From Acidobacteriota bacterium (GTDB lineage Bacteria; Acidobacteriota; Terriglobia; Acidiferrales; UBA7541), in assembly GCA_021812285.1 (NCBI GenBank), contig JAKAOH010000017.1, forward strand, positions 1 to 33,174: a stretch of DNA of 33,174 bases, in the 5' to 3' direction. Positions 1,817 to 27,685 of the stretch are shown one piece after another (the stretch's first letter is position 1; each line of letters begins with the position of its first letter). The notes under the pieces were generated by a model. That model saw nothing but the letters and a program-made list of their open reading frames with translations, was not told the DNA's origin and searched no databases. The position numbers were made by a program, and so were the translations under genes.

Positions 1817-2728
1817 ATGTTCCGGCAACGATCGTCGCAGAAGCTCTCGGTGGTATTCAGCGGAAATTGGGCGCGCCGCTTTGTTCGCGCTCTCGTCGTC
1901 GGCGGGCTCTTTCTTGTGGCTGCCGCGCCTTCCCATGCGCAATTCCCTCCGCCGGTAAAGTCCCTGCCCGCTCCCGGCCAATTCAGCCGCCGCTCCATGC
2001 TCCCGCAACCAGGCCCCATGTCCGGCGTCTTTTCCTTTGTCGAGCCGCTTTCCGACGTCAACAGCAAGGTCGTCAAAGGAGTGCCTTTCTCCGCCACCGT
2101 CATTCGGGAAACCGTTCAGCGCCTCGCCGATGGCAACGTCATCAACCACAAATCCGTCGGCACATTCGCGCGCGACGGCGAAGGCCGCACCAGCCGCGAA
2201 ATCACTCTCGATAACATCGGCCCCTGGGCTTCCGCCGGTAAACCGCCCGTACTCGTCTTCATCAACGACCCGGTCGCGCGGAAAATTTACGTTCTCGACG
2301 AAAATCGAAAAACCGTCTCCGAAATTACTGCTTCGAAAAATGCGAACTTGCGGCGTTCAATGCGCTTGCGGCGCTGGCGGGAATTCCAGAGCGACGTTCA
2401 AACCCAATCCCTCGGCGATAAGACCATGGACGGCCTGCAGGTGCAGGGTACGCGCATCGTCCGCACCATTCCCGCCGGCCAGATCGGTAACGAAAAGCCG
2501 ATCGTCATCACCACTGTCCGTTGGTATTCTCCTGAATTGCAAACCACCATCCTGCTCAAGCGCACCGACCCGCGCTTCGGCACCAACACCTTTGAATTGA
2601 AGAACATCAATCTCTCCCAGCCCCCCGGTTCTCTCTTCACCGTTCCGCCCGGTTACACGGTGCGGCGCGAAAAAGGTTTTCGCGGAATGGCCGGGCCCCG
2701 TCCAGGGCAAGGCCCCGACTTTCCGTAA
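1817..2728 (+). CDS. secreted protein of unknown function downstream of the sigma/anti-sigma pair
   Basis: A 303-residue protein. The ATG at 1817 is preferred over a GTG nine bases earlier because GGAAGGAG lies at the right distance from it. Residues 1-41 form a long signal peptide with a basic N-region, a hydrophobic core and an SHA|Q cleavage site. The mature part is mostly beta-prone, with a conserved-looking GTFARDGEGRTSREI segment, and ends in a Gly/Pro/Arg-rich tail. I do not recognise a catalytic motif. It may belong to the secreted proteins often found with acidobacterial ECF systems, or to a RseB/LolA-like lipid-binding fold; both are guesses. It starts 78 bases after the anti-sigma gene on the same strand, so it is probably in the same operon or a regulon target. 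Confidence 0.75.
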   Translation: MFRQRSSQKLSVVFSGNWARRFVRALVVGGLFLVAAAPSHAQFPPPVKSLPAPGQFSRRSMLPQPGPMSGVFSFVEPLSDVNSKVVKGVPFSATVIRETVQRLADGNVINHKSVGTFARDGEGRTSREITLDNIGPWASAGKPPVLVFINDPVARKIYVLDENRKTVSEITASKNANLRRSMRLRRWREFQSDVQTQSLGDKTMDGLQVQGTRIVRTIPAGQIGNEKPIVITTVRWYSPELQTTILLKRTDPRFGTNTFELKNINLSQPPGSLFTVPPGYTVRREKGFRGMAGPRPGQGPDFP

Positions 2729-2770
2729 AAGTTCCTCGCGGCGACTACCCCTCCCACGGGGAAACACAAG

Positions 2771-2811
2771 CTTGGGGGCGCCAAATCTCCCCGCCCAACG
2801 GCGCCCCCAAG
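2771..2811. terminator. strong GC-rich hairpin, probable terminator of the sigma operon
   Basis: A perfect 12-bp inverted repeat (CTTGGGGGCGCC at 2771-2782, GGCGCCCCCAAG at 2800-2811) separated by 17 bases. It lies 42 bases after the stop of the secreted protein and 106 bases before the cupin gene. It has no T tract, so it is not a textbook intrinsic terminator, but its position between two transcription units fits a terminator or RNA-stabilising stem. Confidence 0.5.
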
Positions 2812-15326: not shown

Positions 15327-17948
15327 ATGCGCCGACCCGGAAAATCGCTTCCCAAAAAGTCGAGTGACCAGAAACGGAAAGGCCGTCTGCGCCTTCGCAT
15401 CCGCTTCGATCGCGGCTTCTGGTTTTCTCGCGTCGGGCTCTCTATTATCGGCGCCGTTCTTGTGCTCTTTCTCGCTGGCGCCGGCGTCTTCCTCTCGTAT
15501 TGGTTCCGTTTCGAACATCTGATGGATCTCCGCCTCAGCGGCCAGATTTTTGGCCGTGCAGCCGAGGTTCTCAGCGCGCCCGGGCGCATCGAAGTCGGCC
15601 AGCCGCTCTCCGAGCAGCAGCTCGTCGCCTACCTCCAGCGCGCCGGCTACACCGAGCAGCCCGACGATTATTCCCCCGGCTGGTATCAAGCTTCCGGTAC
15701 GTCCGTCGAAATTCATCCGTCGAAGACTTCGTATTTTCAAGGCACCAATGCCCTCCGGGTCGATTTCGCCGGCGGAAAAATCGCCGCGATGCGCCTGCTC
15801 GATAGCGGCCAGATGACTTCGGGCGCCGAAATCGAACCGGTCGTCGTCACCACCCTCTTCGGCAGTTCCCGAGTGAAGCGTCGCGTTCTCCAGTACGACG
15901 AACTTCCGCCCACGCTCATCCACGCCGTCCTCGCCGCCGAAGACAAGGATTTCTTCACCGAATCTGCGGTCGATCCCAAGCGCATCCTCGCCGCCGCCTG
16001 GACCGATCTCCGCCTGGGCCGCAAGGCGCAAGGGGCCAGCACGATCACCATGCAGGTAGCCCGCACGTTCTTCTTCAGCCGTGCCCGCACGTTCCGCCGG
16101 AAATTCGAGGAAACGCTGATGGCGTTTGAGCTCGAACACCATTTCACCAAAGAGCAGATTTTCGATCTTTACGCCAATCAGGTCTATCTCGGCAATCGCG
16201 GCAGCTTTTCCATTCACGGTTTCGGCGAAGCTGCCCAGGCCTATTTCGGCAAGGATATTCGCGACCTCAGCCTCGCCCAGGACGCCTTTCTCGCCGGTAT
16301 CATCCGCGCTCCAAACTACTACGCCTCCAGCGACGCCCACCCCCAGCGCGCCTACGACGCCCGCAATCGCGTCCTGAACGGGATGGTTAACGACGGTTTC
16401 ATCTCCCGCGCCCAGGAACAGGCGGCTTTTGAGGATCCTCTTGTCGTTCGTCCCGCCGCCGTTTCCACCAGCGACGCCCCCTATTTCGTCGATCTGGTTC
16501 GCCAGCAACTGCTCGATCATTTCACCGAGCGCCAGCTCACCAGCGACGGCTATCGCGTCTACACCACGCTCGATCCCGAGCTTCAGCATGCCGCCGTCCA
16601 AGCCGTTGCCGATGGTATGAAGCTCGTTGATCAGCGCCTCGCCTGGCGTTACGCCCGCCGCCAGAAGGAAGGCAAGCCTGTTTCTCGGCCCCAGGTCGCT
16701 CTCGTGGCTCTCGATCCGCAAACAGGCCACGTGCTTGCTCTCGTCGGCGGCCGCGACTACGCCAAAAGCCAGCTTGATCACGCGCTCGCGCGCCGCCAGC
16801 CCGGCTCCTCCTTCAAGCCGTTCGTTTATGCCGCGGCTCTTCTCAATGCCGTCGACGGCCGCCAGCCCGTCGTCACGCCCATCACCACTGTTATCGACGA
16901 GCCCACCACGTTTGAATTCGACGGCCGGCAGTACACGCCCGATAACTACGAACACGAATTCTTCGGAACCGTCACCGCAAAAGAAGCGATCACCCACTCG
17001 CTCAATGTCGCCACCGTCAAGATCGCTCGCATGGTCGGCTACGATTGGGTACTCCAGGTCGCTCGCCAGATGAAGCTCGACGACCAGATCCAGGCCACTC
17101 CGGCCATGGCTCTCGGCGCTTACGATATGACTCCGCTCGAAGTCGCCGCCGGTTACACCGCTCTCGAAGACGGGGGCGTTCGCGCCGAACCCATGTTGAT
17201 CCGCAGCGTTGTTCAGCCGGACGGCTCTGTCGCTCTGGAAAATCGCCCGCAAACCTCGCCCGTGCTCGATCCCCGCGTCTCCTTTGTCGTTACGACGCTC
17301 ATGGAAAACGTTCTCGACCACGGCACCGGCGTCGTCGCCCGCATGATGGGCTTCGACGCTCCCGCTGCCGCGAAAACGGGCACTTCTCACGACGGCTGGT
17401 TCGCCGGCTACACCGCGAAACTCATCTGCGTCGTTTGGGTCGGCTACGACGATAGCCGCAATCTTCATCTCGCCGGCGCCGATTCCGCCGGACCCATCTG
17501 GGCTGAGTTCATGAAAAGCGCGCTCCAGATTCCCGGCTACGACAATCCGCAACCCTTCGACCCTCCCTCGGGTGTCGTCGCGGAGCAGATCGATCCCAGC
17601 ACGCTCGAACTTGCCACGCCGCAGTGTCCCGATCCGCAAACCGACTATTTCATCACCGGCACTCAGCCCACGGATTATTCCGGCGGCATCATGGCCAATG
17701 CTCCTCCGCCGGTTTCCGGGATGGGGTACATGCTCGGTGGCAGTCAGAATCCGGCGCCTCCACGCTCCCAGCCGGGTCGCGTTGCGTCCCCGGCGCTTCC
17801 CGCGCGCCTCATGCCGGCTCCAAGCCCCGCTCAGGCGCACCCCAGCGCGCCGCCTGAGCCGCAGAAGAAAAAGACGTTTTTCCAGCGCCTTTTTGGTATC
17901 TTTGGAGCCAAGAAAAAGCCGTCAGGTCATTCGCCGGGCGGCCCATAG
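15327..17948 (+). CDS. class A penicillin-binding protein (bifunctional transglycosylase/transpeptidase)
   Basis: An 873-residue peptidoglycan synthase. A basic cytoplasmic N-terminus is followed by one membrane helix (about 39-62) and a small domain (about 75-160) resembling the UB2H region of PBP1b. The GT51 glycosyltransferase follows, with catalytic E205 in the AAEDKDFF motif and QGASTITMQVAR. The transpeptidase has SxxK at S494/K497 (PGSSFKPF), SLN at 558-560 and KTG at 683-685. A Pro/Ala-rich tail ends in a basic patch. It polymerises and cross-links glycan strands in the periplasm. The family resembles mrcB (PBP1b), but I leave the symbol blank because the outer-membrane activator is not identifiable. 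The TPR gene starts 12 bases after its stop. Confidence 0.93.
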   Translation: MRRPGKSLPKKSSDQKRKGRLRLRIRFDRGFWFSRVGLSIIGAVLVLFLAGAGVFLSYWFRFEHLMDLRLSGQIFGRAAEVLSAPGRIEVGQPLSEQQLVAYLQRAGYTEQPDDYSPGWYQASGTSVEIHPSKTSYFQGTNALRVDFAGGKIAAMRLLDSGQMTSGAEIEPVVVTTLFGSSRVKRRVLQYDELPPTLIHAVLAAEDKDFFTESAVDPKRILAAAWTDLRLGRKAQGASTITMQVARTFFFSRARTFRRKFEETLMAFELEHHFTKEQIFDLYANQVYLGNRGSFSIHGFGEAAQAYFGKDIRDLSLAQDAFLAGIIRAPNYYASSDAHPQRAYDARNRVLNGMVNDGFISRAQEQAAFEDPLVVRPAAVSTSDAPYFVDLVRQQLLDHFTERQLTSDGYRVYTTLDPELQHAAVQAVADGMKLVDQRLAWRYARRQKEGKPVSRPQVALVALDPQTGHVLALVGGRDYAKSQLDHALARRQPGSSFKPFVYAAALLNAVDGRQPVVTPITTVIDEPTTFEFDGRQYTPDNYEHEFFGTVTAKEAITHSLNVATVKIARMVGYDWVLQVARQMKLDDQIQATPAMALGAYDMTPLEVAAGYTALEDGGVRAEPMLIRSVVQPDGSVALENRPQTSPVLDPRVSFVVTTLMENVLDHGTGVVARMMGFDAPAAAKTGTSHDGWFAGYTAKLICVVWVGYDDSRNLHLAGADSAGPIWAEFMKSALQIPGYDNPQPFDPPSGVVAEQIDPSTLELATPQCPDPQTDYFITGTQPTDYSGGIMANAPPPVSGMGYMLGGSQNPAPPRSQPGRVASPALPARLMPAPSPAQAHPSAPPEPQKKKTFFQRLFGIFGAKKKPSGHSPGGP

Positions 17949-17960
17949 GGGGAGCGTCGC

Positions 17961-18839
17961 ATGAAGGCGGGCGCTTGGGCCGGGTTGGCTTTCTCGTTCT
18001 TGGCCTGCGGAGCGTGTGCGCCGCCTTGTCTTGCGGCCTCCCGGTCGCCGCAGCAGCGCTCGCAAGCCTCTCGCGCCGTCCAGTCCAAGCCCGTTTCTCT
18101 CAGCGCCCGTTCCGTTTCCTCGTCCGTTCTTCCTTCGCGCCCCATGACACCGTTCCAACACGAGGAAATGCTCGGCGACACCTACATGGTTCGCAAGCTG
18201 TTCCGTCACGCCATCGCCATCTATTCGGATCTGTTGCGGCAAGAACCTCGAAATGCGGAACTGCTTAACAAAATCGGTATTGCCTACCAGCAGCTCGAAC
18301 TTCCTGAACTCGCCGAGCGTTATTATAAAAAGGCGGCGAAAGTGGACAAACGCTCCGCCATTCCCATCAACAATTGGGGCACCGTCGAATTCGGCTTCCA
18401 TCATTACGGCTCCGCCATCAAACGCTATAAGCGTGCGATCCGGCTCGACCCGTCCATGGCCTCGGCGTACAGCAATCTCGGCTACGCAGACCTCGCCCGC
18501 AGAAAATATGAGGATGCGGTTCTGGCTTTCCGCCGCACCATCCTGCTCGATCCCTCCTTCTTCGAGGATCGCGGCGTCAATGGCCAGGTGATCGAATCGC
18601 GCGGAAACCAGCCGCCCGGTCTCTTTTATTACCTTCTCGCCAAATCGTTCGCCATGCTCGACGATGTGGCGAGCTGCGCTCACTATTTGAAAATGTCCCG
18701 CGACGAGGGCTACAAGAAGTTCACCGACGCACGGAAAGATCCCGCATTCAAGAAGGTTCTGCGCAATCCCCGCATTCGCGCGATCTTGCTTCCTCCTCCG
18801 CCGGCCGCTTCTCGCGCTGCGACCTTCCCCAGCCGTTAA
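17961..18839 (+). CDS. exported tetratricopeptide-repeat protein
   Basis: A 292-residue protein. Residues 1-26 look like a signal peptide (Cys-rich, ending CLAAS). After a Ser/Arg-rich linker there are about four TPR units over residues 65-200 (KLFRHAIAIYSDLLRQEPRN, then ELAERYYKKAAKVD, SAIKRYKRAIRLDPS and DAVLAFRRTILLDPS). The C-terminus ends in a Pro-rich tail. TPRs mediate protein-protein contacts. It sits 12 bases after the PBP gene with a GGGGGAG site, so the two are almost certainly co-transcribed, and it may be a partner or regulator of that PBP; that role is an inference. Between its stop and the first tadE-like gene is a 300-base non-coding gap. Confidence 0.8.
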   Translation: MKAGAWAGLAFSFLACGACAPPCLAASRSPQQRSQASRAVQSKPVSLSARSVSSSVLPSRPMTPFQHEEMLGDTYMVRKLFRHAIAIYSDLLRQEPRNAELLNKIGIAYQQLELPELAERYYKKAAKVDKRSAIPINNWGTVEFGFHHYGSAIKRYKRAIRLDPSMASAYSNLGYADLARRKYEDAVLAFRRTILLDPSFFEDRGVNGQVIESRGNQPPGLFYYLLAKSFAMLDDVASCAHYLKMSRDEGYKKFTDARKDPAFKKVLRNPRIRAILLPPPPAASRAATFPSR

Positions 18840-18940
18840 TCGCGGTTCCTTCGTTCCTCCCTGCCTCCATCCTTGGGTTTCGTCCGTGGTTTAGGGTCTT
18901 CGCACGCGGTTGCCTTTTTTCTCGTAGTACTTTCGTTGGA

Positions 18941-18969
18941 TTGACCGTCTTCCAACGTTCCCGTAAACG
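18941..18969 (+). promoter_or_regulatory. candidate promoter of the first tadE/tadG-like cassette
   Basis: TTGACC (18941-18946), 17-base spacer, TAAACG (18964-18969), inside the 300-base gap 18840-19139. The -10 is weak and the implied leader is about 165 bases. I see nothing else I can name in this gap. Confidence 0.3.
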
Positions 18970-19139
18970 TGGAATGTTCTTCGTGAGAGCGGCCTGAAAT
19001 CCGGGGAAGCGTGCGTCGAGCCTGCGGAAAACGATCTCGCCGCGGAAATGCCTGAGTGTTCCGAAGTGAATCAGGGAACGGTCGTGCGTTTGCTCAGCCT
19101 GTGCACGATTGCGAATTCGCGAAGAACAGCACAAACGTG

Positions 19140-19655
19140 ATGCCAAATTCCCAGCGTTCGAAATCCATCCTGTCCTGCCGTTCATCGGAACGGGGAAGTG
19201 AAATGCTGGAATTCGCATTCGTCATCACGTTTCTGATGACGCTACTTCTGGCCATCATCAGCTTTTCCCGCGCGTACAACGTCTATCAAACAATCACCCG
19301 CGCCGCGCGCGAAGGGGCGCGCATGGCCGTTCTGCCCACGTGCGCCACGTGTGGCAATAGCTACATGGATCCTTCGAGCGGCGTCACGCAACAGAACAGC
19401 GAAATTTTCAGCGGCTATATCGCGCCTGCTCTGCGCGCCGCCAATCTCAATCCTGATTCCGTGTTCAATTACTCGGAAACGGTCGGCTGGCTCGATTCCG
19501 GCGACGCGGACGAGCAGTGTGGCGTAACGATCCGATTCGAGTATCCCTACGATTTGCGCTTGCCTTTTGCTGGCTGGCAGTTCGCCACGCTCAATCTCTC
19601 CACCAACGTCCAAATGCGCCGCGAAAATCAGCCCACGGGAACCACATGCCCATGA
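19140..19655 (+). CDS. TadE-like pseudopilin, cassette 1 first gene
   Basis: A 171-residue protein. A short basic N-terminus is followed by RG|SEMLEF, which fits the class III prepilin-peptidase site (G, then Glu at +5 and Phe at +6), and a hydrophobic helix at about 27-47. The SRAYNVYQTITRAAREGARMAV stretch is the TadE-like signature. The rest is a small exported domain with four Cys and no known catalytic residues. TadE-type pseudopilins are minor components of Flp/Tad pilus systems (known family). ATG 19140 is chosen because the upstream GTG at 19056 adds a segment without family character. No good ribosome-binding site is visible. It overlaps the next gene by four bases (ATGA). Confidence 0.82.
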   Translation: MPNSQRSKSILSCRSSERGSEMLEFAFVITFLMTLLLAIISFSRAYNVYQTITRAAREGARMAVLPTCATCGNSYMDPSSGVTQQNSEIFSGYIAPALRAANLNPDSVFNYSETVGWLDSGDADEQCGVTIRFEYPYDLRLPFAGWQFATLNLSTNVQMRRENQPTGTTCP

Positions 19656-20188
19656 TCCGTTCTCGCCTTCGTCCGCCCGGCGTCTCGTCCTCCTCGCGCG
19701 GAGCGGAACTGCTGGAATTCGCTCTCGTCCTCCCGTTTCTGCTTGTCCTGCTCGTTGGAATCTGGGATTTCGGCGCGGCGTTCGCCTTGAAGCAGAAGAC
19801 GACCAATGCTGCCCGTGAGGCCGCGCGCATCGTCGTTTCCACGTCGTTGACCGATGCGAGTTGCACCAGCATCACGCCCTGTTCGATCGTTGCCGCCGCC
19901 AACGCCGTCATTCAATATCTGAATAACGCCGGCCTCAACGCTTCCTGCATCTCGCCCGGTTCGCCCACGTCATCATCGGAACTCACCTGGACCTATTCCT
20001 GCTCGAACGGCGCTTCACTCGTCATTAACCGAGGCTATGCCGTCGCTGGCGCTGGCGGTTCCCTGGTTCCCAGCACCCAGGTGGTTCTCAGCTATCCCTA
20101 CCAGTGGTGGCTCGCGCGGTTTTTGCCGGGATACCGAACGCCCGCCTTGGTCAAAACGCAGGTGATCATGGCCAATCTGGTCTATTGA
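19652..20188 (+). CDS. TadE-like pseudopilin, cassette 1 second gene
   Basis: A 178-residue protein whose ATG at 19652 forms an ATGA overlap with the previous stop; an in-frame ATG at 19646 is an alternative. The N-terminus carries RG|AELLEF, a good class III prepilin cleavage site, then a hydrophobic helix (about 21-42) and the IWDFGAAFALKQKTTNAAREAARIVVST signature region typical of TadE-like proteins. Its closest relative in the window is the second gene of cassette 2, with which it shares GIWDFG, FALKQ, TNAAR, CSIVAAA and the closing MAN segment. It probably sits in the inner membrane and becomes part of a Tad-type fibre or its assembly machine. Confidence 0.82.
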   Translation: MIRSRLRPPGVSSSSRGAELLEFALVLPFLLVLLVGIWDFGAAFALKQKTTNAAREAARIVVSTSLTDASCTSITPCSIVAAANAVIQYLNNAGLNASCISPGSPTSSSELTWTYSCSNGASLVINRGYAVAGAGGSLVPSTQVVLSYPYQWWLARFLPGYRTPALVKTQVIMANLVY

Positions 20189-20197
20189 GGAGGAGCC

Positions 20198-21487
20198 GTG
20201 GCCGAAGTCTCACAGCGCGCATCTCGGTGCGCCGAGCGAGGAGTTTCCCTTATCCTGGTTGCATTCTCGCTCGTCGCGATTCTTGGCGCGGCCTCGCTGG
20301 CCATCGATCTCGGCATTCTCTATGTGGCGCGCAGCCAGGCCCAGCGCGCCTCCGATGCCGCCGCTCTCGCCGGCGCGGCGGCATTCATCAATTCCGGCTG
20401 CACCACCGCCGTTGGCGGTTGCCTCGCCGGTGGCACGCAAGAATCGCTTGCCCGTCAGCAGGCGGAAAACGTCGGCGGGGAAAACAATGTGGCGGGCGAG
20501 GCGGCCAGCATTCAGGACAGCGACGTCTCCTTTTCCTACCCCAATCCCATGGAGCCGCAGATCACCGTCACCGTTCAGCGCACGGTCGCTCGAGGTAACG
20601 CCATTCCGCTTCTTTTCGCCAAACTTTTCGGAGACACGCTTGGCAGCGTTTCCGCCACGGCTACTGCCGAAGCCTTCAACCCCTCCGGCGCTTCCGTTCC
20701 CGTCACCTATGGTTGCGTCGCACCGTTTCTTGTGCCCAATTGCGATCCCGTCCACACCAGCCCTTCCAGTCCCACTTGTGCCGCCGGCACGGCCGGCTAT
20801 TTCATCGATCCCACCACCGGAGCGGTCGCTCATCCCGGCGTCTATTCAACCGGTGTGATTGGCGAACCGTGGCAGCTTCATAGCAACGCAGGCCCCAGCC
20901 AGTGGTATCTCGTCGCTTACAACACGAACTTGGCCACGCAAATCTCTTCGGGAAATGGGAACGGTAACGGACAAAGCTCGTCACTTCTCCGCCAATATAT
21001 TTCGGAATGTGCGCCGGCCGAGGTTTCCTGCGGTCAGGCTGTCAGCACGTTCAACGGCACAAGCGCCGGCCCCACCGATCAAGGTATCGACGCACGGATC
21101 AACGCCAGCGCCGACGGTCTTGGCCAGGGGCAGGATACGATCGACACGTCGGTCGGCCCTCCGTTTCCCATCACAGGAGGCTCAAACAATCCCGATCCCT
21201 CCCTCGTTGGCCAAACCTACTACGGCCCCAGCCCCTCGGAGGTTCTCGTTCCCGTATACGATGGCCACACCTTGAACCCAGGTGGCGATACGGTTTCCGT
21301 TGTCGGTTTCATGCAGATCTTCATTCAAGACGTTGTTCACAAGGGCAAAAGTGACCTGATCGACGCGATCGTGCTCAACGTCATGGGCTGCTCAAGCGGT
21401 AGCGACGCACCAGGCAATGGCGGAACGCCTCCCGTCGCCGCAGCCGGCGGTTTGCCCATCCCGATTCGCCTCATCCGCACCAATTAG
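20198..21487 (+). CDS. TadG-like pilus-associated protein, cassette 1 third gene
   Basis: A 429-residue protein starting with GTG at 20198 behind GGAGGAG. The N-terminal TadG-type region (about 14-60) shows ERGVSLILVAFSLVAILGA, AIDLGILYVARSQAQRASDAAALAGAAAF, a clear signature of putative Flp-assembly TadG proteins. It lacks the Glu at +5, so prepilin cleavage is unlikely. The long exported part has a CVAPFLVPNCDP motif, a Cys-containing SECAPAEVSCG segment followed by a GPTDQGIDARI segment, a VPVYDGH / VVGFMQIFI region and a closing PIPIRLI. Those last features recur in the other two copies. The role is probably as a minor fibre component or adhesin anchored in the inner membrane. Confidence 0.8.
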   Translation: MAEVSQRASRCAERGVSLILVAFSLVAILGAASLAIDLGILYVARSQAQRASDAAALAGAAAFINSGCTTAVGGCLAGGTQESLARQQAENVGGENNVAGEAASIQDSDVSFSYPNPMEPQITVTVQRTVARGNAIPLLFAKLFGDTLGSVSATATAEAFNPSGASVPVTYGCVAPFLVPNCDPVHTSPSSPTCAAGTAGYFIDPTTGAVAHPGVYSTGVIGEPWQLHSNAGPSQWYLVAYNTNLATQISSGNGNGNGQSSSLLRQYISECAPAEVSCGQAVSTFNGTSAGPTDQGIDARINASADGLGQGQDTIDTSVGPPFPITGGSNNPDPSLVGQTYYGPSPSEVLVPVYDGHTLNPGGDTVSVVGFMQIFIQDVVHKGKSDLIDAIVLNVMGCSSGSDAPGNGGTPPVAAAGGLPIPIRLIRTN

Positions 21488-21848
21488 CTGAATGTTTTGG
21501 TCGAATGGCTCCGGGTTGCGGATCGTTCCGCGCCCGCTCGTTCGCACCGTTGCTTGCCGACCGCTGCTCGTCACACGTCGCTCACTGTCGATTTTTGCAC
21601 AGATCCGGCTGCGTGATTTGTTTTCCGATCACTATTAGCAATGGTCTCAATAACGGGATCGTCTAGTTCCATTACGAATCAACATTCCTGACGCGAAAAT
21701 AGTAAAATCCTCTCCATAACCTCTTGCAAATCAGTCGAGATTTCCTGGTGCCGCAGTCATGGAATTTCCCTCCCAATTGGCAACTTCGTCATTGCTTCGC
21801 GAATTACAGAAGACGGTCGGAAGTTTTTCTCCCGCAATCACTTATCTC
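21488..21848. other. AT-richer intergenic spacer between the two tad-like cassettes
   Basis: A gap of about 360 bases with no credible coding frame. The part after about 21600 is clearly AT-richer than the surrounding genes. It contains no copy of cassette DNA that I can recognise. It leads into the promoter of cassette 2. Confidence 0.5.
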
Positions 21849-21876
21849 TGGACTTTCAGTGCAATCGGTCTACAAT
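21849..21876 (+). promoter_or_regulatory. promoter of tad-like cassette 2
   Basis: TGGACT (21849-21854), 16-base spacer, TACAAT (21871-21876). The predicted start near 21883 is about four bases before ATG 21888, suggesting a nearly leaderless message for the first gene of the cassette. Confidence 0.4.
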
Positions 21877-21887
21877 GCTGCCAATAG

Positions 21888-22598
21888 ATGTGGGGATTGA
21901 TTCGTAGCGGGGAGAAGGAGAAATTGGCCCTCATTCGTTATCTAAATTGGTATCGCCTGCATGTTTCGAATAGGCACATGACGTCGGTAAACGATGTGCA
22001 CAGCCGAGTTTCCGTGTCATCCGCATTGCACAACCGAAAACGGACTAGCCATCTCGAACGGGGCGCCGAGCTTGTTGAGTTCGGTTTCATTCTGCTCGGG
22101 CTGATGATGCTTCTGCTGGGGATTTTCGAATTCGCTCGCGCTTACAATATCTATCAGACGATCACGCGCGCCGCGCGGGAGGGCGCGCACGCTGCAGTGA
22201 TGCCCACTTCCAGCGCCGACGGCAACACCTATACCCTGCTAGACACGAGCAGCTACTCAGTTGGCACCTGCCAGGTCCCGGCATCCACCACAAGCTCTCC
22301 AAGCACGCCCACATTCGACGGCCCGATATCGCAGGCCCTCACCGCTTCGAGCCTCAACCCGGCAGAGGTGCAACAGTATGAGGAGTGCGTCGGCTGGATC
22401 AATCCGACAACCACCTCGGATAACCAATGTGGCCTGACGATCGCCTTTCAATATCCGGTGCAGCTCAACATACCGATTCCGTTTGCCAACAAACCTTGGG
22501 TCACCTCATTCAATGTCCAAACCAGCGTCACGATGAGGTTGGAGGACGTCACTTATAAGCCAAACGGGGACGGCACATATTCGGAGTCATGTCCTTGA
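21888..22598 (+). CDS. TadE-like pseudopilin, cassette 2 first gene
   Basis: A 236-residue protein if started at ATG 21888, as the promoter position suggests. Alternatives are TTG 21924, behind GGGGAGAAGGAG, and ATG 21978. About 60 residues precede RG|AELVEF, the class III prepilin site; that is long for a prepilin leader, so a later start is quite possible. A hydrophobic helix follows, then the FARAYNIYQTITRAAREGAHAAV signature shared almost exactly with the first gene of cassette 1 (YQTITRAAREGA identical). The exported domain has three Cys and an NQCGLTIAFQYPVQL segment that matches the QCGVTIRFEYPYDL segment of cassette 1. Orthologous role is inferred. Confidence 0.8.
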   Translation: MWGLIRSGEKEKLALIRYLNWYRLHVSNRHMTSVNDVHSRVSVSSALHNRKRTSHLERGAELVEFGFILLGLMMLLLGIFEFARAYNIYQTITRAAREGAHAAVMPTSSADGNTYTLLDTSSYSVGTCQVPASTTSSPSTPTFDGPISQALTASSLNPAEVQQYEECVGWINPTTTSDNQCGLTIAFQYPVQLNIPIPFANKPWVTSFNVQTSVTMRLEDVTYKPNGDGTYSESCP

Positions 22599-22615
22599 CC
22601 CCGCCGAGGAGCGAC

Positions 22616-23257
22616 ATGCGATCAATATCCATGCCCCGCGGGCAGCGGAAGGGCCGCGCGCGGGAAGGCAGACGGAACAGGGGCGCGGAACTCGTGGAGT
22701 TTGCGTTCGCAGTGCCCGTGCTCTTACTCATTGTCGTCGGCATTTGGGATTTTGGTTCGGCTTTCGCGCTAAAGCAGAGGCTGACGAACGCGGCCCGTGC
22801 GACAGCCAGAATTGTTATTTCTACTCCGAGTAAGGATCCCACTAATCCTGCAAACTGCGGTGTGTCAACTGTCCCGTGCTCGATCGTGGCGGCGGCGACC
22901 GCCGCGCAGCAATACCTGAAGAATGCTGGGCTGCAATATTCATGGATCAACCCCACGTCGCCGAGTTACGTCTCCGGTGCGGATCAGTGGACCTACTTCT
23001 CCGGCTCCGGCTTTACCAGCTCGACCGCTGCTCCGAGCAACGGTCCCGAGCTCATCATCAACGACTGTGCGGGCATTGAGGCCAACGGCAACGTCGTGAC
23101 CCCTCCTACGGACGGATCAATCCAGGCAACGCAAGTGACTATACTTTGGCCGTTGCAGTGGTTCGCACAGGGTTTTCTTCCCCCATCCGCGCTCCCAAAA
23201 AGTTTGACGGTCAACACCACCATGGCGAATATCGGCGGAGGCTGCGCTGACCTATGA
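22616..23257 (+). CDS. TadE-like pseudopilin, cassette 2 second gene
   Basis: A 213-residue protein. ATG 22616 follows GAGGAG at a short but usable distance; the next in-frame ATG (22631) is possible. A strongly basic N-terminus (many Arg/Lys) leads to RG|AELVEF and a hydrophobic helix, then GIWDFGSAFALKQRLTNAAR. It matches the second gene of cassette 1 over its whole length (CSIVAAA, QYLKNAGL, final TMANI), but is longer by an insertion around residues 100-150. It ends in an ATGA overlap with the TadG-like gene. Confidence 0.82.
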   Translation: MRSISMPRGQRKGRAREGRRNRGAELVEFAFAVPVLLLIVVGIWDFGSAFALKQRLTNAARATARIVISTPSKDPTNPANCGVSTVPCSIVAAATAAQQYLKNAGLQYSWINPTSPSYVSGADQWTYFSGSGFTSSTAAPSNGPELIINDCAGIEANGNVVTPPTDGSIQATQVTILWPLQWFAQGFLPPSALPKSLTVNTTMANIGGGCADL

Positions 23258-24696
23258 AACCTTGCACGATTGATGCAAACCGCACTGGCGAGTGTGGCGC
23301 AACTTTTGTCCTGGTCGCGTTCTTCCTCCTTTTCTTGCTGGGAGCGGCGGCCTTGGCTATCGACCTCGGGATGCTGTACGTCACCCGCAGCGAGGCGCAA
23401 CGTACAGCGGACGCCGCTGCGCTGGCGGCGGCAAACACGTTTTCCTCTTGCGCTCCAAGTGCAACCTGCGAGAGCGCGGGTGCTGAAGCCATCGCCACCA
23501 CGGCCGCGCTTCAGTCCGCGCAGGCAAATCCCGTCCTCGGTCTTTCCCCCACCGGGACCTGCACCAGCGCAGGAAGTGGCAACTCGCAGACCCAACAGGC
23601 CTGCATGGCGGTCGCTTTCAGCGACCCCACGCTAGCTTCCTCTAACCCCGGCACTGAGCCCCAAGCCACGGTTACGATCCAGCGCACCGGCATCCAGCTG
23701 ATTTTCGCAAGAATGTTCAATCAGCGTATTGGACAAGTCTCGGCAGTAGCAACAGCTGAGTATTACCAGGGAAACGGTGTCGCTGCTTGTGTCACGCCGT
23801 TTTTGGTGCCGAACTGCGATCCCAATCCGAACAACGCCGAAACGCCAAACAGCAACTGCGCGGGAGGCACCTACGGGGGCTTTGTCAACGCTACAATCAC
23901 CGGGACTGCGCCATACTACACAGTCACCTCAACGATCGCAAACCCCGAGATCTACGACCCAACCACGCCCGGCACGGCCGGCGTGCTTGGCGAGCCTTGG
24001 ACACTCCACTACGCCTATCCGAACTCAAACGGGACAATCGGCCAAAGCGGCAGCGTAACTCCTAGCCAATGGAGCGTAGCAGCCTTCACCAGCAATAGCG
24101 CTGAGGCGGTGGCGCAGGAGATCGCGCAGTGTCCGCCAGTCAACATCGCCTGCGGGAGCTTGGTGAATACAAAGCAGGGGGACACTCCCGAGAAAATCGA
24201 TGAAGCGGTCAACAGCCTGATCCACCACAACCCCTGCACTGGGAATAGCTCTGGGTCGACCGGTTGCGGAAGCCAGGACGGCCCCGGCACAGGCCAGGAT
24301 TATCTTTCCCCGGCAGGGGGAACTTCGACCCAACCCTACCCGACCAGCTTTAACACAACTTGCCCGATGCCCAATATCTTTTCATTCGACGTCGGCTCCT
24401 GGAACACGCATGCGCAGGGGAACAACGAGTGCGCGAACTTGGGGGCAAGCGCATCGATCATCCAAGCCCCCATCTACCAAGGAAATAATCTTACCGCCGG
24501 AATGAACGCGGTGATCGTAGTTGGATACGCCGAACTCTTCATCGATTATTCCCAGTTCGTTTCTGTGCCTGGGGTGGGAGCTGAGGAAACCGTGCAGGCA
24601 AACGTGATCAACATCCAAAATTGCGGCAGCGGAGGCCCCGGCTCTACGGTTGCCGCCTCGCCCATTCCGATCCGACTGATCCAAGGCCCGAACTAG
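23254..24696 (+). CDS. TadG-like pilus-associated protein, cassette 2 third gene
   Basis: A 480-residue protein starting in an ATGA overlap with the preceding stop. The N-terminal TadG-type region (TFVLVAFFLLFLLGAAALAIDLGMLYVTRSEAQRTADAAALAAA) is clear. The exported portion repeats the landmarks of the cassette 1 protein: CVTPFLVPNCDP, GEPWTLHY, PSQWSVAAF, a QCPPVNIACG segment, an APIYQG / VVGYAELFI region and the closing SPIPIRLI. It carries many Cys, Asn and Ser and a roughly 50-residue insertion near 310-390. Overall divergence from cassette 1 is large, so the duplication is old. The role is presumably as for the cassette 1 protein. Confidence 0.8.
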   Translation: MKPCTIDANRTGECGATFVLVAFFLLFLLGAAALAIDLGMLYVTRSEAQRTADAAALAAANTFSSCAPSATCESAGAEAIATTAALQSAQANPVLGLSPTGTCTSAGSGNSQTQQACMAVAFSDPTLASSNPGTEPQATVTIQRTGIQLIFARMFNQRIGQVSAVATAEYYQGNGVAACVTPFLVPNCDPNPNNAETPNSNCAGGTYGGFVNATITGTAPYYTVTSTIANPEIYDPTTPGTAGVLGEPWTLHYAYPNSNGTIGQSGSVTPSQWSVAAFTSNSAEAVAQEIAQCPPVNIACGSLVNTKQGDTPEKIDEAVNSLIHHNPCTGNSSGSTGCGSQDGPGTGQDYLSPAGGTSTQPYPTSFNTTCPMPNIFSFDVGSWNTHAQGNNECANLGASASIIQAPIYQGNNLTAGMNAVIVVGYAELFIDYSQFVSVPGVGAEETVQANVINIQNCGSGGPGSTVAASPIPIRLIQGPN

Positions 24697-24757
24697 ACCT
24701 GCGCTCGCAGACGCGACAAACCTTCCAAGCCTTAAACCTCCGCCACTTCGCGTCTGA

Positions 24758-25378
24758 CCGAGCGGCAATCCCAGCGGCCAGCAAGCGCAGGACGCAATTC
24801 AGGAATGCATTCCGGTCACTTGCGGCGAATCCTTGCCGGCAAAAAAGGTGGGTAAGGCGGATACTGGCGTGGAGGACAGAATCGACGCGAGCAGCCTTTC
24901 GACCGGTTGCCCAAGTAACCGCAATTTCAACCAGGGCCAGGACACAATTACCGCCGAATCCGGCCAGACTCCCGGCTACCAGATCTACGCCGGCTCGAAT
25001 AACCCGCTCGTTACGGAGGGCGACCTCACTGCCGGAACGGCGATCACCATCCAGCAGAGTCCTCCCGTTGTCACGGTCGCTATGTACGACGGAGTGGTCT
25101 GTGGAACGACGGAACCGGATGGAACGGTGGAAACGACGTCGAATTCCGATTGCATCGGCCCAAGCGGAGGGACGGTCACCGTGGTGGGCTGGATGTCGCT
25201 CTTTCTAGAAGGTTACTACCACGGAGCTGCGTACGACGGCGTGCAATCCATGACCCTGAGCATCACGCCCTGTGGCAGCGGCACGCTCACCGGTGTGTCG
25301 GGCGGTACGTTGGCCGGCGATATCGCCGCTCCGGGCGCGACCCCGATTGCAATCCGTCTGATCCAACACGCGGACTGA
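24758..25378 (+). pseudogene. truncated third TadG-like gene (C-terminal half only)
   Basis: An open frame of 206 codons after an in-frame TGA at 24755-24757, with no ATG start and no ribosome-binding site; TTG 24833 is the only near-usable start. It covers only the C-terminal half of the TadG-like proteins: QECIPVTCG aligns with SECAPAEVSCG of cassette 1, GVEDRI with GIDARI, GQDTI with GQDTI, GSNNP with GSNNP, VAMYDG with VPVYDG, GTVTVVGWMSLFLEG with DTVSVVGFMQIFIQD, and TPIAIRLI with LPIPIRLI. The N-terminal membrane region and any accompanying tadE genes are missing. It looks like the remains of a third cassette lost by deletion. It could still be translated by read-through or from a rare start, which I think unlikely. 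Confidence 0.7.
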
Positions 25379-25469: not shown

Positions 25470-26831
25470 ATGAAGCGGGCAGTTTTTGTGCTGCTGGCGC
25501 TGGGCGCTCTCTCGCTCTTCCTGCCTCGAGCGAGCGCGCAGACGCGTTCTACGGAAACGGTCATTCGCCTCAGCATCGACGGCGAAATCGAACCGATACT
25601 CTCCGAATATATCCAGAGCGGGCTCATTCGCGCGGCCAGGGAACACGCCTCGCTGGTGCTGATCCGGATGGATACGCCTGGCGGACTTGGCGAATCCATG
25701 CGGCACATCATCCAGGCAATTTTGCGCTCGCCGGTTCCCGTTTGCGTCTACGTGGAGCCGGACGGTGCACGGGCGGCTTCCGCAGGATTCTTCATTCTGG
25801 AATCTGCCGATATCGCTGCAATGTCGCCGGGAACGGAGATGGGCGCGGCTTCGCCATTGCTCGAAGTGGGCGGCTATCCGGTACAGGTCGACCCGACTCT
25901 GCGGAAAAAAATCGTCCAGGACACGCTGGCGTTTCTGCGCAGCTACGTGAGCCAGCGCGGCCGGAACGTGACGCTGGCGGAAACGGCGGTCACGCAAGCC
26001 AAGGCGTTCAGCGCCAAGGAGGCGCTCGACGACAAGCTCATCGACTTGGTCGCCAATTCCGAACCCGATCTGCTCACCCAGCTCAATGGGAAAACGATCG
26101 CGCGGTTCGACGGCTCGCAGGTGACGCTGCATCTGGGGCATCCGGTCGTCGTGAACGTCGGCATGTCGGCCCGGGAACGCTTTCTCGCGCGGATCGTGCA
26201 GCCCGACGCGTTTTTCATTCTTCTGATCGTCGGTGTGCTGGGTCTTTACATCGAATTCACGCATCCCGGCCTGGTGGCCCCGGGCGTGATTGGCGGCATC
26301 TGCATCCTGCTCGCCCTTTTCGCGATGCACATGCTGCCTGTGAACATGGCTGGGCTGCTTCTGATCTTGTTGGCAATCGCTCTATTCGTCCTGGAAGTGA
26401 ACTATTCCGGTCACGGAATATTGGGTGTGGGAGGGGTAATCGCGCTGATTCTGGGCGCGGTGATGCTCGTACGCTCGCCCCTGACGACGGGCGGCGTCGG
26501 GCTGGGCGTGGCGTTCGGCGTGGCGATTCCGTTCGCCGTGTTTTTCATTCTGGTTGGGAGATTGCTGCTGCGGTCGTTCCGGTGGAAACCGGCCACGGGA
26601 CGCGAAGGGCTTGTTGGCGCCGTCGGCCAGGTGACCGAGCCGGTGGGTCGGGAGAAAGGCAGCGGGATGATTTTCGTCCATGGGGAATTGTGGCGCGCGG
26701 TGAGCTCGGCGCGTGAGGGCCCCGAAGCGCTGATCCCCAAGGGCGCATGGGTTCGCGTAGTGAAAGTGGATGGATTAACTCTTCATGTGGAACCGGCCGA
26801 AGCGCCCGCCGCGCGGCCGGACGCGGGCTGA
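25470..26831 (+). CDS. nfeD: NfeD-family membrane-bound serine protease (long form)
   Basis: A 453-residue protein. A signal peptide (cleavage after A23 in ASA|Q) is followed by a ClpP-class protease domain: MDTPGGL at 67-73 and the nucleophile S104 in ARAASAGFF, with a Lys partner probably at 146 or 147 (RKKIVQD). Four or five membrane helices span about 245-370, and a C-terminal OB-fold NfeD domain covers about 375-445 (GLVGAVGQV, then WRAVS and WVRVVKVDGL). Long NfeD proteins cleave stomatin-type partners in the membrane (established for the archaeal homologue), and a slipin gene follows after 17 bases. The pair is a classic NfeD/SPFH operon controlling membrane microdomains or stress response. 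Confidence 0.92.
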   Translation: MKRAVFVLLALGALSLFLPRASAQTRSTETVIRLSIDGEIEPILSEYIQSGLIRAAREHASLVLIRMDTPGGLGESMRHIIQAILRSPVPVCVYVEPDGARAASAGFFILESADIAAMSPGTEMGAASPLLEVGGYPVQVDPTLRKKIVQDTLAFLRSYVSQRGRNVTLAETAVTQAKAFSAKEALDDKLIDLVANSEPDLLTQLNGKTIARFDGSQVTLHLGHPVVVNVGMSARERFLARIVQPDAFFILLIVGVLGLYIEFTHPGLVAPGVIGGICILLALFAMHMLPVNMAGLLLILLAIALFVLEVNYSGHGILGVGGVIALILGAVMLVRSPLTTGGVGLGVAFGVAIPFAVFFILVGRLLLRSFRWKPATGREGLVGAVGQVTEPVGREKGSGMIFVHGELWRAVSSAREGPEALIPKGAWVRVVKVDGLTLHVEPAEAPAARPDAG

Positions 26832-26848
26832 TCCGCAAAGGAGGTGGA

Positions 26849-27685
26849 ATGGGCTTCGGCGAAACTCTGTTTGCGATTGCGGTGATACTCTTCCTGATCT
26901 GGCTATTCAACTCCGTTTACGTCGTCAAGGAGTGGGAGCGCGGCGTGATCCTGCGCATGGGCCGCATGGCGCCGGACGTCAAAGGCGCCGGCCTGCGGAT
27001 CGTCGTCTGGCCCATCGACAAGTTCTATCGCATCTCCCTCCGCATCGACACTATCGAAATTCCCCCGCAGGACATCATCACGCGGGACAACGTTTCAGTG
27101 AAAATCAACGCCGTCTGCTATTTCCGCGTGATGGACCCGAAACTCGCGCTTTCCACCGTCCAGAACTACCTCTACGCCACCACCCAGTTCGCCCAGACCA
27201 CCCTGCGTAGCGTCGTCGGCCAGTTCGAGCTCGACGAGATCCTCTCCGAGCGCGAAAAAGTAAACGAGCAGGTGCAACGAATCCTTGACCAGGACACCGA
27301 GCCTTGGGGTATCAAGGTAACGAAGGTGGAAGTGAAGCAGGTGGACATTCCCGCCGACATGCAACGCGCCATCGCCCGCCAGGCCGAAGCAGAGCGCGAA
27401 CGCCGCGCCAAGGTGATCGCCGCCGACGGCGAATTCCAGGCTTCCGCCAAACTGAATGATGCCGCCGAAGTGCTTTCGCGCAATCCGGTTTCCGTGCAGC
27501 TGCGTTATTTGCAGACGCTGATCGATATCGGAATCGACAAGAACACCACCATCGTCTTCCCGCTGCCGCTCGATATGATTTCGTTCCTGCGCGGCATGGG
27601 TTCGCCCACTGCGGTGGCGCCGGCTCCGCTTGGTCCCGCGTCCCCGGCGCAACCTCCGGCAACCGCGCCGGAGAAGGGTAAATAG
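26849..27685 (+). CDS. slipin / SPFH (band 7) membrane scaffold protein
   Basis: A 278-residue stomatin-like protein. ATG 26849 follows AAAGGAGGTGG at ideal distance; the in-frame upstream region overlaps nfeD and is not used. One membrane helix (about 6-25) is followed by the SPFH domain: VVKEWERGVILRMGR, the IPPQDIITRDNVSVKINAV stretch, TLRSVVGQFELDEILSERE, then IPADMQRAIARQAEAERERRAKVIAADGE, the usual coiled-coil entry. A short Ala/Pro tail ends the protein. It would oligomerise under the inner membrane and is the likely substrate or partner of the NfeD protease. The SPOR gene begins 15 bases downstream. Confidence 0.93.
   Translation: MGFGETLFAIAVILFLIWLFNSVYVVKEWERGVILRMGRMAPDVKGAGLRIVVWPIDKFYRISLRIDTIEIPPQDIITRDNVSVKINAVCYFRVMDPKLALSTVQNYLYATTQFAQTTLRSVVGQFELDEILSEREKVNEQVQRILDQDTEPWGIKVTKVEVKQVDIPADMQRAIARQAEAERERRAKVIAADGEFQASAKLNDAAEVLSRNPVSVQLRYLQTLIDIGIDKNTTIVFPLPLDMISFLRGMGSPTAVAPAPLGPASPAQPPATAPEKGK

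Follow-up and report, generated by a model that had tools for sequence, protein, structure and literature searches.

Minor-pilin genes that lie on a contig without the machinery to assemble their products raise the question of which filament, if any, they serve. We addressed this question for a 33,174-nucleotide stretch of DNA (the window) that is the entire contig C30 of a draft Acidobacteriota genome (G000; 3.73 Mb in 282 contigs, 91% complete, 0.03% contamination), in which two complete TadE-TadE-TadG cassettes, a (19140-21487) and b (~22014-24696), are followed by a TadG remnant of a third, c (24758-25378). A preliminary description of this DNA had noted that tadA, tadB, tadC, secretin, flp and prepilin peptidase genes are missing from it, and no Tad core gene lies on the 33-kb contig; it had further supposed that the cassettes are free-standing accessory sets for a machine encoded elsewhere. 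We consider it likely that each trio encodes a tip, in the form of a heterotrimer, for the one Tad (type IVc) pilus that the cell has; this would be a multi-tip pilus with cassette turnover at the chromosomal slot described here. Throughout, E1, E2 and G denote the first TadE, second TadE and TadG of a trio, type A (EEG) the order TadE-TadE-TadG, and type B (GEE) the order TadG-TadE-TadE. Those relatives of G000 that carry a name are Acidobacteriota metagenome-assembled genomes (MAGs), and all genomes compared are drafts, in which several trio islands are interrupted by contig ends.

Window trios and the Tad machine of the same genome

The gene products were assigned with the curated Pfam cut-offs of 22.9 bits for TadE (PF07811) and 22.3 bits for the N-terminal Tad/TadG domain (PF13400), and all matches lay above them, at 41-51 bits for the four TadE and at 33 and 46 bits for the two TadG proteins. 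Paralogues aligned over their full length, with 45% identity between E1a and E1b (180 amino acids, E 3e-36), 46% between E2a and E2b (186 amino acids, E 4e-44) and 34% between Ga and Gb (513 columns, E 5e-49); as judged from these alignments, the duplication of the cassette is far above chance. Pfam and the alignments agree with the earlier claim of two full three-gene cassettes in a shared order, with the amendment that the second probably begins near 22014 and not at 21888. The ATG at 21888 is doubted because neither start codon nor frame is kept in the sister genome G002, which has ACG and a 1-nt indel at the corresponding position, and GTG at 22014 is probably the start of E1b. The tight overlaps described for both cassettes were found at the E1/E2 junction of each, but the E2 and G genes overlap (by ATGA) only in cassette b, a 9-bp gap with a GAGGAG site separating them in cassette a. 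Likewise, the wide divergence claimed beyond the membrane-proximal signatures holds insofar as the N-terminal TadG helix is better kept (63% identical between Ga and Gb, the remainder 37-38%), but the paralogues still align over their full length and keep invariant cysteines throughout. The third, partial copy proved to be the 3′ part of a TadG gene alone, without a signal/transmembrane segment and without TadE genes, and its counterpart, cassette c, is intact in G002.

A complete tad locus was found elsewhere in the genome, on contig C156, which carries the single rcpC gene found in G000 and its single complete tad core. The contig carries genes for a sigma-54 activator and a DUF362 protein, the tadE-tadE-tadG trio of the locus itself, a gene for a membrane protein of 529 aa, and flp, the gene of an A24 prepilin peptidase, rcpC, rcpA, tadZ, tadA, tadB and tadC. 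The window trios match the trio of this locus over the full length and position by position (for cassette a, E1a 41%, E2a 35% and Ga 34% identity, the last over ~500 columns, E 4e-57). With one rcpC, G000 contains three complete type A trios (one in the tad locus and two in the window) and one type B trio on contig C19, i.e., several complete trios for one core, as in the Kil-type multi-tip system considered below; from this gene content we infer that the trios share the single machine.

Several further genes of G000 are of note. The 529-aa protein, encoded between tadG and flp (L009, C156 12388-13977), is a multi-membrane protein without a Pfam match. The type B trio of C19 (L026, 15565-18405, minus strand) is diverged, and the distal half of its TadG is unlike type A: PGxY and GVTFYF-like strands recur in it, which to the eye suggest a beta-helix. 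Two orphan Flp-like pilins are encoded outside the tad locus, on C160 (L025, 9625-9846, minus strand) and C45 (L024, ~2580-2810, plus strand); that of C160 is very similar to the C156 Flp, with Ala replacing Gly ahead of the cleavage site, and both are candidates for tip adapters resembling KilK/KilO.

In the family, 17 of 89 genomes had both TadE and RcpC, 3 had the one alone, 3 the other alone and 66 neither (Fisher p = 1.5e-12, a value that overstates independence as the genomes are related); the co-occurrence with a tad locus looked for in the preliminary description was present, with the core gene rcpC as its marker, in 17 of the 20 genomes with TadE. Type A trios are built into tad loci of this genus and several others, in many Acidobacteriota, and type B trios into those of other genera, immediately preceding flp in G007 and G096. 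The strongest genomic sign that the slot serves the Tad pilus is that these two types, each built into tad loci elsewhere, adjoin there. The trios might instead feed another type IV filament of the same cell (type IVa pilus- or type II secretion system-like) unconnected to the Tad pilus, given that G000 has further T2SSE ATPases (C170, C191, C181 and C39) and that prepilin peptidases have been described as promiscuous (PMC12075869). We regard this as unlikely, since the distribution of TadE follows RcpC rather than the T2SSE family, which is widespread, tad loci contain trios of either type, and each of the three positions of the window trios has its homologue in the tad-locus trio.

Cassette turnover between conserved flanks

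The slot was compared in four genomes of the same genus (G001, G002, G003 and G004), annotated with profiles built in this analysis. Between shared flanks, i.e., a PBP1A-like gene and a TPR gene on the left and nfeD-like and slipin genes on the right, G000 holds A(a), A(b) and an A remnant; G002 holds A(a), A(b′) and A(c); G001 holds A(a), then B up to the contig end; G004 holds A(a), B, A, ~12 kb of other sequence and B; and G003 holds type B only, split over two contig halves. The DNA of the window is colinear with that of G002 up to 22231, just past the E1b membrane segment, breaks off and resumes at 24755 inside the third TadG gene of G002; together with the 82% match of the remnant, this means that cassette b of G000 sits where G002 has b′ and most of c, be it by gain in one genome or by loss in the other. 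The best identity to cassette b was ~40-44% among 299 genomes of the class, in which Gb had no long match closer than ~44%. By contrast, wherever the tad locus was found among the genomes examined, in four members of the genus and one of the order, it holds a single trio at an unchanged position. The cassette order recurs across Acidobacteriota, as the preliminary description had looked for, and cassette content varies between congeneric genomes at one address. As read from gene order, the slot between PBP1A/TPR and nfeD/slipin is a fixed address with cassette turnover in this genus, and because the flanking genes are constant while trios come and go, we take them to be an address and not partners.

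The same synteny bears on a more trivial origin, in which ordinary minor-pilin genes of a tad locus were parted from their core by assembly breaks, as could happen in a draft MAG of 282 contigs. This is refuted, and we give it next to no credence: the C156 tad locus already has its own trio, and four other genomes keep non-Tad genes on the flanks of the slot, G004 doing so on a contig of 82.8 kb. Neither a tad core directly outside the cassettes nor a lack of cassette conservation in relatives, either of which would have spoken against free-standing sets, was encountered. Mobile-element or integron cassettes were likewise rejected, since no long direct or inverted repeats were found between the cassettes and no recombinase among the window open reading frames (ORFs) of the slot.

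Truncation and multiplication of trios were also seen elsewhere. Contig C31 of G004 has another truncated trio (L069, 6091-8220, minus strand), in which only the 3′ part of TadG is left and complete E1 and E2 genes of the tad type come after it. Genomes of other families of the class (G146, G136 and G128) also have several trios or tandem arrays of them, among them three tandem trios of TadG and TadE genes on contig C339 of G146 (L110, 3741-11930). This genus has up to 13 TadE matches per genome, the top of 151 genomes sampled.

In a joint tree, E1 and E2 formed two separate clades (support 100/100), the position-specific clades anticipated earlier. In the E2 and G trees, and with less resolution in the E1 tree, grouping was seen for the a-trios, which came from four species, and for the trios of the genus's tad loci, the deeper branching order being unresolved. 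Because the a-group and the tad-group recur at all three positions, the trios travel as units with fixed positions. Between G000 and G002, where the Ga orthologues are 89% identical, the ratio of non-synonymous to synonymous substitution rates (dN/dS) in cassette a was 0.145 for E1, 0.177 for E2 and 0.085 for G, as compared with ~0.15 for the tad-locus trio, 0.07 for rcpA, 0.04 for tadZ and 0.07 for flanking genes. Cassette a is under purifying selection, like the tad-locus trio and somewhat weaker than rcpA, tadZ and the flanks. The remnant has no stop codon and a dN/dS of 0.10 to its intact G002 relative, so that its truncation may be recent or the piece may still be translated.

An in-frame, 5′-truncated TadG piece under such constraint, the tandem copies, and a sister genome with different cassettes between the same flanks would also be expected of a silent reservoir, in which the extra trios and the TadG fragment are gene-conversion donors that vary an expressed tip, as in antigenic variation. 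We think this very improbable, as the copies (34-46% identical in protein, with no long DNA repeats) are too diverged for ordinary homologous conversion and cassette b has its own conserved leader.

This leader (~150 bp within 21808-21975) has a core at 21821-21940 that is 92-95% identical in DNA to G002, adjoining DNA being 57-78% identical, and a weaker version lies ahead of cassette b of G004. It contains a promoter-like TGGACT-16-TACAAT at 21849-21876; a shared promoter for the cassettes was rejected, since the sigma-70-like site at 21849 scored no better than shuffled expectation, though the surrounding leader is conserved. An Rfam search of the window gave no match to an RNA element. Ahead of cassette a, the stretch TAGTACTTT(C/G)GT(T/C)(G/C)GATTGAC is conserved in four genomes (window ~18920-18970 and its equivalents L058, L059 and L066) and is possibly an operator or promoter. 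The features of the slot are listed in Table 1.

Table 1. Features of the slot and its boundaries, in window coordinates.
Feature	Position	Strand	Evidence
E1a, TadE-type minor pilin, cassette a position 1	19140..19655	+	PF07811 E 1.2e-12; prepilin site ERG/SEMLE with Glu5
E2a, TadE/TadF-type minor pilin, cassette a position 2, overlaps E1a	19646..20188	+	PF07811 E 1.4e-13; SRG/AELLE with Glu5
Ga, TadG-type large minor pilin, cassette a position 3, without Glu5	20198..21487	+	PF13400 E 7e-8
E1b, TadE-type minor pilin, cassette b position 1	22014..22598 (frame open from 21888)	+	PF07811 E 1.6e-10; 45% to E1a
E2b, TadE/TadF-type minor pilin, cassette b position 2	22589..23257	+	PF07811 E 2.2e-13; 46% to E2a
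Gb, TadG-type large minor pilin, cassette b position 3	23254..24696	+	PF13400 E 7.5e-12
3′ remnant of third TadG (cassette c), intact frame	24758..25378	+	82% amino acid identity to third TadG ORF of G002, residues 301-509
Conserved leader/promoter region of cassette b, probably untranslated	21808..22013	+	DNA identity to G002
Left slot boundary, PBP1A-like gene and TPR gene	15327..18839	+	Synteny in G001, G002, G003 and G004; TPR domains
Right slot boundary, nfeD-like and slipin (SPFH) genes	25470..27685	+	Synteny in G002, G003 and G004; NfeD domains in G003 orthologue

Proposed tip function of the trios

The placement of TadG at a pilus tip is suggested by Glu5, homology and precedent, and not by structure. 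Glu5 is present in all 15 E1 and all 15 E2 proteins of the genus/order set and in further ones of other genera, and none of the intact TadG proteins inspected has it. Where other type IV filaments have a large, Glu5-less minor pilin encoded at the 3′ end of its gene cluster, that pilin is regarded as the subunit that comes first and sits at the very tip (PMC5207764); because it lacks Glu5, TadG could sit only first, at the distal end. TadG has six cysteines that are invariant in the genus/order set, with many loops of variable length in its distal half, and the AlphaFold model of Ga, of low confidence, has a pilin-like single long N-terminal helix followed by beta strands. A sequence search for relatives of TadG with solved structures returned none that was credible, and NCBIfam gave sub-threshold matches only.

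The invariant cysteines, the large extracytoplasmic domain and the conserved PBP1A/TPR neighbours would also suit proteins that are anchored in the membrane and act at the surface or in the periplasm, such as adhesins or factors of the cell wall or envelope, carrying the TadE/TadG signal segment but building no filament, in which case the PBP1A neighbour would be relevant. We hold this to be improbable: every TadE protein retains the prepilin cleavage site and Glu5, which one would expect only if a filament is assembled, and the neighbours stay constant while the trios vary.

In the tip reading, which we prefer, the two TadE-type pilins and the large TadG would be inserted in the inner membrane and matured by the A24 peptidase of the tad locus or another prepilin peptidase. 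The trio would then prime a pilus of C156 Flp built by the C156 machine, TadG going first and exposing its large cysteine-rich domain at the distal end. Because there is one machine with three complete type A trios and one type B trio, alternative tips are possible, so that the pilus could be built with different tips, and the slot would be where the genus gains, loses, truncates and replaces tip trios. Tentatively, and with some doubt, we suggest that it acts as a tip slot, a genus-wide address that collects, swaps and discards the two trio types, and that a single pilus machine would be retargeted through this change of cassettes.

Several results weigh against this proposal. TadE was found without detected RcpC in three genomes of the family (G001, G050 and G073), all of them draft assemblies. 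The Ga model has a mean pLDDT of only 63, and a structure search with it gave 0 matches at E <= 0.001. As the TadG fragment shows, moreover, some copies are not functional trios.

Tad pili are widespread, and the ligands of their tips are mostly unknown. One machine with trios exchanged at one address offers a natural experiment, with trios that are short, self-contained, divergent and testable singly, and related species with different trios at the same address may be swapping what their pilus touches. The multi-tip idea would be extended from predatory Myxococcota to uncultivated Acidobacteriota, so that counting Tad core loci alone would underestimate the pilus capabilities of one organism. 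Among the papers listed on TadE in Acidobacteriota, none was relevant as judged by title.

Comparison with known systems

The nearest precedent is the Kil system of Myxococcus xanthus, where Herrou et al. (2025) showed that any one of four paralogous trios, KilL/KilM/KilN, can prime one Tad-like pilus, that no pilus is made once all four are lost, and that prey range varies from trio to trio; the authors proposed the same role for TadEFG elsewhere (PMC12075869). Alternative minor-pilin sets encoded away from the core (Kil Tips 1-4) were therefore already known and genetically tested, and the suggestion in the preliminary description that the window holds an undescribed system has to be given up, while its supposition of free-standing accessory sets for a machine elsewhere is supported by the tad locus on C156, the recurrence of the cassettes, the position clades and the co-occurrence. 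Its further idea, that the copies may be specialised for different surfaces, stands as a hypothesis.

Trios of the more usual kind, tadE-tadF-tadG of Aggregatibacter and cpaJ-K-L of Caulobacter, share with the window trios their families, the type A order, and Glu5 in the TadE-type proteins with none in TadG. They lie in canonical tad loci, whereas the window trios are free-standing and multi-copy. In the tip model for Caulobacter CpaJ/K/L, CpaL is placed as we propose for TadG (PMC12607857); unlike CpaL, for which the same paper is the source, the window TadG proteins have no vWA match in Pfam in the distal domain. The GspI-GspJ-GspK tip of the type II secretion system likewise combines Glu5 minor pilins with one large Glu5-less pilin encoded last (PMC5207764), but differs in protein families and machine, so that it is an analogy only.

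With Kil Tips 1-4 the trios described here share one Tad machine and several paralogous TadE/F/G-type trios, most of them encoded away from the core, a large subunit with a variable distal domain and disulphides, and orphan Flp proteins (the adapters KilK/KilO there, the C160 and C45 Flp here). Since tip1-4 are reported to be restricted to Myxococcota (PMC12075869), no membership in the Kil predation system is claimed. Tip function is demonstrated for Kil and proposed here for the Acidobacteriota trios. The Kil trios form four dispersed clusters that are kept throughout Myxococcales and associated with predation and with a type III secretion system that has no needle, whereas those of the slot, with no known predatory link, vary between congeneric species. 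What is new beyond Kil is the tandem array, the mixture of two trio types and the species-level differences at one address; if the tip-slot suggestion is true, it would also be new for a pilus to be retargeted in modules through the turnover of cassettes at one dedicated locus, Kil having interchangeable tips without a turnover locus.

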